Source: Caulobacter vibrioides (GTDB taxonomy: Bacteria > Pseudomonadota > Alphaproteobacteria > Caulobacterales > Caulobacteraceae). Taken from it: a DNA stretch of 64,000 nt. Location of the stretch: positions 62,001-126,000 of the forward strand of contig NZ_PJRR01000012.1 in assembly GCF_002858865.1 (NCBI RefSeq), read 5' to 3'. The notes under the pieces are model-generated. The model did not search any database. It was not told where the DNA came from and saw nothing but the letters and a program-made list of their open reading frames with translations. The translations under genes and the position numbers were made by a program. The stretch's first letter is position 1. Each line of letters opens with the position of its first letter. This document shows, one piece after another, positions 6,022 through 22,013 of this stretch.

Positions 6022-6046
6022 GGTCCGCAATGGGTCGAAAGCCGCC
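6022..6046. repeat. Direct repeat flanking an orphan gene, right copy
   Basis: This is the second copy of ggtccgcaatgggt followed by cgaaagccgcc. It lies 48 bases upstream of the TTG start of the orphan gene and 11 bases from the start of structured element copy 1. Confidence 0.8.
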
Positions 6047-6056
6047 CTTGGGCGAG

Positions 6057-6227
6057 GCGATCCTTGAATCTCTTGGAGGCTGCAGCGTGCAGGGCTGATC
6101 AGGTCAGTCAAGGACCGCCTCCGGCGACCGCGCGCGGCGACGCGCAGCGTCGTCCTTGAGTGACCTGATCAGCCCTGCGATCGTCTCGCCGTGAGATGTA
6201 AGGATGGCTCCTTCCGGGCGGAAGGAA
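6057..6227 (+). repeat. Structured repeat element, copy 1 (possible ncRNA or mobile repeat)
   Basis: The element can be read as one closed structure. The outer stem pairs atcctt (6060-6065) and atctc (6068-6072) with gagat (6193-6197) and aaggat (6200-6205). Inside are a small hairpin ctgca-gcg-tgcag (6080-6092) and a 25-bp stem pairing 6091-6115 with 6152-6176, broken only by a G-G mismatch at 6107/6160. A 3' hairpin tccttcc-gggc-ggaagga follows (6209-6226). The apical 36 bases are G+C-rich. A second copy is at 21836-22013 with compensatory changes in the stems. The strand shown is arbitrary. Function unknown. Confidence 0.8.
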
Positions 6228-6251
6228 GCTCGAAACCACAGCCACAACCCC

Positions 6252-6363
6252 GTCATCCCGCGCTTCATGCGCGGGACCCATGGTTCAGCGTCCACGTGAG
6301 AGCCCCATCCTGCTCCGCACCTGCGGCGGACGGATGGGTCCCGCGCATGAAGCGCGGGATGAC
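6252..6363. repeat. Perfect 30-bp inverted repeat, family B
   Basis: The arm at 6252-6281 (begins gtcatcccgcgcttcatgcg) and the arm at 6334-6363 are exact reverse complements over 30 bases, separated by 52 bases. Weaker relatives with gtcatccc...gggatgac ends lie at 9613-9695 and 49683-49720. It sits downstream of def and probably acts as a REP-like terminator. Together with the structured element it fills the gene-free stretch 5975-6395. Confidence 0.85.
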
Positions 6364-6395
6364 GGCGGTAGTTGGATCTAAGGCGCCGGCAGCCC

Positions 6396-11619: not shown

Positions 11620-11723
11620 GAGGTGGAGACCGGCAGACGACCCAGAGGTGATCTCGTTGTGGCTGCTGCCTCTCGGCCCTGACCAGGTTGGCGAGGACTC
11701 CGTCCGCGCCGATCTCCGAGGCC
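11620..11723 (-). ncRNA. ffs: 4.5S RNA, signal recognition particle RNA (small bacterial type)
   Basis: Read on the minus strand, the segment contains the SRP domain IV core GGTCAGGGCCGAGAGGCAGC (followed by AGCC). It has a GAGA tetraloop closed by CC/GG and the Ffh-binding asymmetric loop ending GCAGC. The ends pair: ggagatcggcgcggacg near 11700-11717 is complementary with few mismatches to cgtctgccggtctcc near 11624-11638. The position just upstream of dnaX matches the common ffs-dnaX order. With Ffh it targets membrane proteins. The exact ends are estimates. Confidence 0.88.
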
Positions 11724-20821: not shown

Positions 20822-21826
20822 CTACTGCGCGTACGGAGCGAGATTTGCTTCCCAGTTTGCGTCATGAATTATACGTGCATGGTGATGGCCGCCCGCCAAA
20901 ATCTGAGACTTGGTCAAGTGCGCTACAGCCGCCCAGTTTCCTGCAAAGACGTAGGTCGCATTTGCAGGCATCACACTCTCCAAAACGGTCATCCCTGTAC
21001 CGGGAAAGACGTAAGCCACGTAGGCGTGAAAGCCACCGTGCCCTAGATAGACCTCAGCGGGATCACGGCTAGCGAGGAAAGTGAGCCGCTGCATAATCGG
21101 CCCTTGGGAAGTTGGTGCGGTACGAGCAACAAGCCCAGCCACGTGGGCGGAAACACCACCAACATTGTTACCCGGCGGGAGTAGCGTCCAATTTACTCTA
21201 CGCGTCTGCGGAGGAAGAAACGACGCCAAATCATCGTGGCGAATTTCCAACTCGCCAAATATTTCCAAGATAAGATTTATGGCGTGAAGAACTTCAGATT
21301 CTGGTGATTGCAGCCAATGATACACTGGCGAGACGACCAACCGAGCTCCATTATAATCAGCCACCGTCAGCTCCAAGCCTTGCGGCGGAACAAACGTTCG
21401 CGGATAGCAATCGCGGTAGATGTCGACGGTTTCCGTCACGGTGCGCGTTTCCCCGCGCCCCGCCCATTCTTGCCGGGTCCACTCGCGCCTACCTACCAGC
21501 CGACTTTCTTTGGGTCGGTTGCGATGAACAACAAAAGTACCCTCAGAATTGACGCGGCTTATACGCCCCACGGCCGGTGGCAACAGCGTATCGCCATCGA
21601 CTAGATTGCGAAAACCAGAACGGTCGAGTTTAGCTGCAGGCACATTCGCTACATCCACAGCTAGCTTGAATGCCGTGTTCGGGATCAGTCCACCGAGATA
21701 GCTGGATAAAGAACGTACGTACTTCTTTCGGATCAGCATCTTCCATTCCCGAACAACAACGTTCTTGCAGAAATGGTTAAGCCCCCGAGCAATTCCATAG
21801 GTTGTGACCGCGACAAGTTGTCGCAC
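20822..21826 (-). CDS. Orphan hypothetical protein in an AT-richer island
   Basis: I do not recognise this protein. A GTG at 21826 gives 334 residues without a clear ribosome-binding site; an ATG at 21739 gives 305 and follows a purine-rich stretch. The basic N-terminus (LIRKKYVRSLSS) is followed by a mixed-composition body with DVANVPAAKLDRSGF, FVVHRNRPKESRLVGRREW, EIRHDDLASFLPPQTRR and the C-terminal ILAGGHHHARIIHDANWE, a His-rich stretch. Codon use is visibly less G+C-rich than the neighbours, suggesting horizontal gain. It lies next to structured element copy 2, like the orphan gene at 5546-5974. Confidence 0.6.
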   Translation of the reverse strand: MRQLVAVTTYGIARGLNHFCKNVVVREWKMLIRKKYVRSLSSYLGGLIPNTAFKLAVDVANVPAAKLDRSGFRNLVDGDTLLPPAVGRISRVNSEGTFVVHRNRPKESRLVGRREWTRQEWAGRGETRTVTETVDIYRDCYPRTFVPPQGLELTVADYNGARLVVSPVYHWLQSPESEVLHAINLILEIFGELEIRHDDLASFLPPQTRRVNWTLLPPGNNVGGVSAHVAGLVARTAPTSQGPIMQRLTFLASRDPAEVYLGHGGFHAYVAYVFPGTGMTVLESVMPANATYVFAGNWAAVAHLTKSQILAGGHHHARIIHDANWEANLAPYAQ

Positions 21827-21835
21827 TATGCGGGT

Positions 21836-22013
21836 GCGATCCTTAAATCTCTTGGAGGCTGCAGCGTGCAGGGCTGGGCAGGTCAGTCAAGGACGACGCT
21901 CGCGCGTCGCCGCGCGGCGGCCGCCCGGAGGGCGGTCCTTGAGTGACCTGCCCAGCCCTGCGATCGTCTCGCCGTGAGATGTAAGGAGGGCTCCTTCTCG
22001 GGGCGAGAAGGAC
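21836..22013 (+). repeat. Structured repeat element, copy 2 (possible ncRNA or mobile repeat)
   Basis: Same architecture as 6057-6227. The 25-bp stem pairs 21870-21894 with 21935-21959 and has the same G-G mismatch. Two pairs that are A-T and T-A in copy 1 are G-C and G-C here. The closing 3' hairpin is tccttctc-ggggc-gagaagga (21992-22012), again with matched changes. The 40-base apex resembles the reverse complement of the apex in copy 1. It sits between the 5' end of the orphan gene and ahcY and fills most of the 301-base gap. Confidence 0.8.

Follow-up and report, generated by a model that had tools for sequence, protein, structure and literature searches.

The window (the whole 64,000-nucleotide stretch of Caulobacter vibrioides DNA that was analysed) carries copies of a structured element whose family is real, widespread and without a name in what we searched. 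We interpret it as a family of non-autonomous mobile palindromic repeats of Caulobacteraceae, recognised as folded DNA, a reading to which we assign a probability of roughly 55%. According to this interpretation, the unit is about 190-215 bp in size, apparently non-coding and intergenic, and would spread as mobile DNA. It would extrude as a hairpin or cruciform, and a putative recombinase or transposase would read its shape (a 16-bp stem, a G·G mismatch and a branched tip) instead of its sequence. Only those copies that still fold would move, and paired sites would change together for that reason, while the tip may be inverted or exchanged at the short TCAAGGAC/GTCCTTGA repeat. If this is true, Caulobacteraceae chromosomes hold a large DNA family constrained in shape and not in sequence, with a branched tip exchanged between copies across that family, and a laboratory model genus would offer many natural copies of a substrate on which to study how cruciforms extrude, how DNA is recognised by shape and how palindromes turn over. 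It would also mean that near-perfect covariation can originate at the DNA level and does not imply RNA, the warning signs against RNA being a lacking wobble preference and the replacement of paired segments as blocks.

Fold and anatomy of the element

Both copies lie where the original prediction had placed them (6057-6227 and 21836-22013), and they are homologous (copy 2 versus copy 1, E 3.9e-48), with the same fold and with long identical blocks in their alignment. Compared with shuffled sequences, the fold obtained with RNA parameters had z scores of -9.4 (copy 1) and -8.4 (copy 2) and that obtained with DNA parameters -7.8 and -11.9, with 0 of 200 shuffles equal to either copy under either parameter set. 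The double change in the stem between the two copies (AT/AT to GG/CC), the G·G mismatch kept in both and the 3' hairpin re-paired with different letters in copy 2 had all been predicted, and they are present in the folds and in the alignment. The predicted extent of the unit holds as far as its coordinates go, but a variable 5' hairpin ahead of each copy had been missed (Table 1). The 5' hairpin of copy 1 is present in the minimum-energy fold and absent from the centroid, and a hairpin of differing sequence stands at this position in many copies of the element. The tip of the stem is not a plain loop and can form three short hairpins. The predicted alternative pairing of the atctc and gtctc segments is possible as judged from the letters. 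By eye, the left loop holds a start-like signal (GGAGG-N7-GTG), which stops early in copy 1.

Table 1. Positions of the parts of copies 1 and 2 in the window
Feature	Position	Strand	Partner	Evidence or remark
Copy 1 variable 5' hairpin	about 6043..6054	+		Minimum-energy DNA fold; outside the originally predicted coordinates
Copy 1 core	6060..6205	+		Covariance model R1, 162.8 bits
Copy 1 outer stem, left arm	6060..6072	+	6193-6205	Fold and covariation
Copy 1 conserved left internal-loop box TTGGAGGCTGCAGCGTGC	6073..6090	+		Alignment A2
Copy 1 16-bp covarying stem, left arm	6091..6106	+	6161-6176	Fold and covariation
Copy 1 G of the kept G·G mismatch	6107	+	6160	
Copy 1 closing repeat TCAAGGAC	6108..6115	+	GTCCTTGA, 6152-6159	Covariation
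Copy 1 tip with short hairpins	6116..6151	+		Folds (RNA, DNA) and tip comparison
Copy 1 closing repeat GTCCTTGA	6152..6159	+	TCAAGGAC	Covariation
Copy 1 16-bp stem, right arm	6161..6176	+		Fold
Copy 1 conserved right internal-loop box GCGATCGTCTCGCCGT	6177..6192	+		Alignment A2
Copy 1 outer stem, right arm	6193..6205	+		Fold and covariation
Copy 1 variable 3' hairpin	6209..6226	+		RNA and DNA folds
Copy 2 variable 5' hairpin	21821..21839	+		Minimum-energy DNA fold
Copy 2 core	21839..21988	+		Covariance model R1, 161.8 bits
Copy 2 16-bp stem, left arm	21870..21885	+	21944-21959	Fold
Copy 2 G of the G·G mismatch	21886	+	21943	Fold
Copy 2 tip, three hairpins	21895..21934	+		Consistent with an inversion when compared with the G064 orthologue
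Copy 2 16-bp stem, right arm	21944..21959	+		Fold
Copy 2 variable 3' hairpin	21992..22012	+		RNA and DNA folds

From its 5' end inward, the element consists of a variable hairpin, the outer stem, the internal loop, the 16-bp stem, the G·G mismatch, the closing repeat and the tip, and the right half mirrors this order back out to end in the second variable hairpin (3'). The outer stem is CCTTAAATCTC paired with GAGATTTAAGG, or variants of these, and the internal loop is asymmetric and conserved, with TTGGAGGCTGCAGCGTGC opposite GCGATCGTCTCGCCGT. In the 16-bp stem the letters vary among copies and the pairing is kept, and the closing repeat, an 8-bp inverted repeat, encloses a tip of up to three short hairpins. 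Copies from other genera follow the same plan with different letters in stem and loops, and most of those read have a stem length of 16 bp. Three hairpins form in 45 of the 82 folded Caulobacter tips, the middle one being GCC..GGC in 41 of these 45, while 10 of the 12 printed tip folds from other genera have three hairpins with no unpaired bases between them, i.e., a four-way junction.

Several variants of this plan were seen. A second Caulobacter repeat family (L049, L050 and L051) has the same tip and closing repeat (GTCAAGGAC..GTCCTTGAC) with a different outer stem and without the G·G mismatch. A subfamily in genome G251 (L381, L382, L383, L384, L385, L387 and L388) has a conserved outer flank, GCTATTGGAAC.., and is without G·G at the usual place. 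In L342 (genome G334) the two boxes of the internal loop have the opposite orientation to the core, and the mismatch nevertheless remains G·G on the strand in question, as though the outer part had been rotated with respect to the core. Copy 1 is adjoined, at window positions 6251-6364, by a further long inverted repeat, formed by GTCATCCCGCGCTTCATGCGCGGGACCC with its reverse complement, and stretches similar to it adjoin other copies of the element too.

Distribution and known families

The original prediction that the element occurs twice is too low, as a whole-genome search of its own genome gave 5 complete copies, plus about 3 that are partial. By BLAST, it was found in 23 of 61 genomes (its own included), every one of the same genus, and an exact 21-base pattern gave 97 matching stretches among named genomes, whose titles are Caulobacter or metagenome bins, the bins being labelled Alphaproteobacteria (KR13_S3), Proteobacteria (CAULO1) or Caulobacterales. 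A covariance model was built from 70 copies (alignment A2, which holds 70 of 72 copies selected from 90, L090 and L071 having been omitted by choice and without a test), and at E of 1e-6 or better it matched in 101 of 390 Caulobacteraceae genomes and in 9 of 22 genera. When 14 of the model-positive genomes were searched again, up to 60 matches per genome were obtained, some of them the same places counted on both strands. The loci that were read comprise 25 from the covariance-model search and 60 fetched stretches. A class-wide search with the core pattern (385 genomes, the element's own family included) matched 5 genomes and the reversed control pattern matched 9, so the core pattern alone is no proof of the element outside Caulobacteraceae. 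Three core-pattern matches (L324, L327 and L328) fall outside the family, and in two of them (L324 and L328) the same core sits within a long palindrome, so that these two may be distant relatives.

Neither the phage nor the plasmid collection contained a match to a Caulobacter copy, the plasmid collection gave none to a copy from genus g30, and extended pairing was present in 0 of the 33 core-pattern matches in IMG/VR; a phage or plasmid element was rejected on these grounds. Known Rfam RNA families were likewise rejected, because in a search of the whole window against Rfam 15 nothing relevant to the element reached the gathering score, and five loci searched at E up to 1 gave only sub-threshold, microRNA-type matches. 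Elsewhere in the window, positions 11624-11715 on the - strand match the bacterial small SRP RNA, and no other Rfam family reaches its gathering score anywhere in the window.

A literature search over titles and abstract openings, with most subscription journals outside its scope, found no description of the element, and the RNAs in the available part of PMC1273637 are others. Among known kinds of repeat, the MITE-like intergenic repeats of bacteria come closest, judging from the portions available of PMC2229807 and PMC10969869. The accessible text of PMC2229807 describes Correia/NEMIS, ERIC, RUP and RU-2 as palindromic multicopy intergenic repeats of 100-200 bp with a long stem-loop and gives bacterial MITE-like repeats as thought to be moved in trans. 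As far as that text goes, our element resembles these four in its intergenic, multicopy, palindromic long stem-loop plan. It is likewise short, multicopy, dispersed and, with genes called by a home-made finder, apparently non-coding and mostly intergenic, and it is present or absent at orthologous sites (loci L323 and C8, see below). Unlike the MITE-like repeats, however, it has a stem that changes freely with pairing kept, a fixed G·G, a branched tip exchanged between copies and hairpins beyond both ends; terminal repeats or a target duplication are not evident in it.

Within the genus itself there are the CIR repeats of Caulobacter, reportedly described by Chen and Shapiro in 2003, and we regard it as highly improbable that the element is one of them. 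The accounts of CIR in the parts available of PMC2229807 and PMC10969869 share with the element the genus, the intergenic position, the multiple copies and the inverted-repeat structure, but the CIR plan in the former (a unit of about 110 bp in which a linker connects two arms and a loop carries a conserved GANTC) differs from the single nested palindrome found here. GANTC is not conserved in the element, occurring in 1 of 90 distinct cores, the sole case being copy 1 of the window, where it lies in the outer stem; it is by the description of CIR, and not by its sequences, that the two are set apart.

Strand-specific hairpins serve as mobile-element signals in REP/RAYT and IS200/IS605-derived palindromes. 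The element has a strand-specific hairpin as well, but Y1_Tnp, found in 13 of 41 genomes of the genus, is present in 0 of the 6 copy-rich ones (G002, G005, G007, G026, G030 and G032), and since it does not track the element, an origin of this kind was rejected. A retron or RT-linked RNA was rejected in the same way: RVT_1 does not track the element, being present in 15 of 69 genomes of the genus and lacking in the element's own. A scan of loci L059-L161 and of the window revealed no autonomous version and returned a single box pair, 7.8 kb apart, which we took as chance. Integron attC sites are recognised by the shape of a folded strand and not by sequence; compared by eye, the element has a mismatch and a branched tip where attC has extrahelical bases. 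The terminal repeats of parvoviruses combine a palindromic stem with small tip hairpins that occur in two orders (flip and flop). Stem and tip hairpins of the element are alike to these, but the element is chromosomal and internal and has three tip hairpins, and, in contrast to the viral repeats, its kept G·G would vanish if one arm copied the other.

Covariation, wobble pairs and gene context

Covariation was tested with a pair-counting tool on 70 copies and exceeded both controls. Paired cells made up 94.0%, versus 83.8% with partners shuffled, and two-sided cells numbered 266 versus 78. In the central helix (columns 30-49 with 113-132), two-sided changes account for 225 cells and one-sided changes for 8. 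For the stem count, 101 of 133 anchored copies were used and reduced to 74 distinct stems, in which positions 1-16 were Watson-Crick in 92.3% of cases with arms from the same copy and in 67.3% with arms shuffled between copies. The prediction would have been undermined by many more copies with stems that do not covary; many more copies do exist, and all told they covary. The G·G mismatch is present in 71 of the 74 distinct Caulobacter stems, with C·C in none, and in 60 of 73 elements from other genera, always with the same strand relative to the core, and the pair beside it changes among copies while G·G persists.

Strong covariation, a strand-defined mismatch and conserved loops would also suit a structured RNA that is encoded in many copies on the + strand and has its helices under the usual selection. 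RNA helices usually contain several per cent G·U, and a selected RNA should tolerate G·U on its strand more than A·C. Yet at stem positions 1-16 we counted 16 G·T and 36 A·C (16 of the 36 at position 4), and over all 25 stem positions minus the mismatch 40 G·T and 46 A·C, which weakens the RNA reading. The A·C excess sits at single positions of related copies and makes no case for an RNA from the - strand either. In other genera G·T and A·C numbered 6 and 11, in rows preselected for pairing: this set (73 elements from 85 loci, 51 distinct) was restricted to elements in which at least 11 of 16 stem pairs match, a filter that raises its pairing rate.

Gene context was assessed for 85 Caulobacter copies (locus-edge copies dropped) and for 51 of 56 copies from other genera. 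Among the Caulobacter copies, 58 of 85 have a co-directional gene upstream (p 0.001), a bias that rests on genes called with a home-made finder, and 46 of 85 have one downstream; where the upstream gene lies within 400 bases, 27 are co-directional versus 16. An earlier version of the finder had given 46 of 55 co-directional upstream genes and was replaced, its training set being judged contaminated by antisense frames. Outside Caulobacter, there is no orientation bias to the flanking genes (24/51 and 23/51). The original prediction had left the choice between an RNA and a hairpin recognised as DNA. Since G·T is not favoured and orientation bias is lacking in the other genera, the balance tips towards a hairpin that acts as DNA, whereas the co-directional upstream bias, which is seen in Caulobacter alone, counts against the DNA reading and keeps RNA open. 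With no Rfam family at gathering score in addition, we consider a structured RNA quite improbable.

Exchange of tips, proposed mobility and loss

Nine comparisons at orthologous loci show what becomes of the tip, which was kept in 5, replaced in 3 and changed in an inversion-like manner in 1. Kept tips are 91-98% identical in direct orientation (copy 1, the C11 copy, two at the C8 locus and one pair from genus g30), and the other tips 79-81% (pair A, pair B and L054 at the C8 locus); in L054 two stem pairs adjacent to the tip were also changed on both arms. The remaining case is copy 2 versus G064, where the stem is the same and the tip matches at 93% inverted and 72% direct. Because unrelated or reversed tips score 65-81%, the inverted match stands out, and judged from the sequences it fits an inversion or, equally, the substitution of a tip with the opposite order. 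For 30 of the 45 clean tips, the reversed order of arms also occurs, a figure with no random expectation behind it. As G·G is kept and C·C never appears, an inversion would need its breakpoints within the 8-bp closing repeat, unless inverted mismatches are lost. A bolder form of the DNA reading, in which the element is a new mobile or invertible class of shape-read folded-strand DNA whose recombinase also flips or exchanges the tip at the 8-bp inverted repeat, appears unlikely to us.

These exchanges bear on what the covariation means. That shape is kept over sequence is strongly supported by the two-sided changes and by the same-copy arms described above, but the original argument that both sides changed together, hence selection, is too simple: the tip was swapped as a block in 3 of 9 comparisons, once with two stem pairs, so part of the covariation stems from exchange between copies. 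Loss or shortening of the central hairpin was also seen, affecting 11 of 133 anchored copies (an identical CTGCAGCC junction is shared by at least 4 of these) and G379 relative to G378. Such frequent loss, the block swaps, the near absence of one-sided changes (8 against 225) and the lack of a wobble preference would all suit a neutral palindrome whose fold is not selected, its arms being kept complementary by template switching (quasi-palindrome correction) and by exchange between copies. Neutral upkeep fits poorly, however, with a G·G that persists in 71 of 74 stems while the neighbouring pair changes, with internal loops that remain unpaired and conserved, and with the 16-bp stem length of most copies read from other genera. 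Mismatched stems are inherited at orthologous loci (the C11 pair and pair A), thus suggesting that correction is not fast and, equally, that pairing is not enforced at every locus. On balance, we see a neutral palindrome as a conceivable but rather unlikely explanation.

Mobile DNA, our preferred reading, is consistent with presence and absence of the element at two loci. At locus L323, it is absent in 13 of 13 relatives compared (out of 14 fetched, L441 being without the right flank), the site being a short, plain intergenic stretch in 11 of them and occupied by other inserts in 2; the inserted stretch in G334 contains another repeat as well. At the C8 locus, counterparts of the copy in the window's own genome exist in G026, G030 and bin 32-67-7; in G002 and G032 this locus is a tight junction with the element absent. 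Flanks at both loci are too diverged for reading exact ends or target duplications. Several copies are inherited vertically, standing at the same place in different species, which argues for movement that is occasional and not frequent.

The C8 locus (L059 and L254-L263) lies beside an ispH-like gene, and its insert differs between species. In the window's own genome and in G026 it is the element next to a small open frame, in G030 the element by itself, and in G029 an open frame in which a Fic/Doc-like motif was recognised by eye; G002 has no insert there. Half copies were also observed (e.g., L117, L122 and L159), in which the right box and the 3' hairpin are kept and the left half is lost, the breaks falling in or near the stem.
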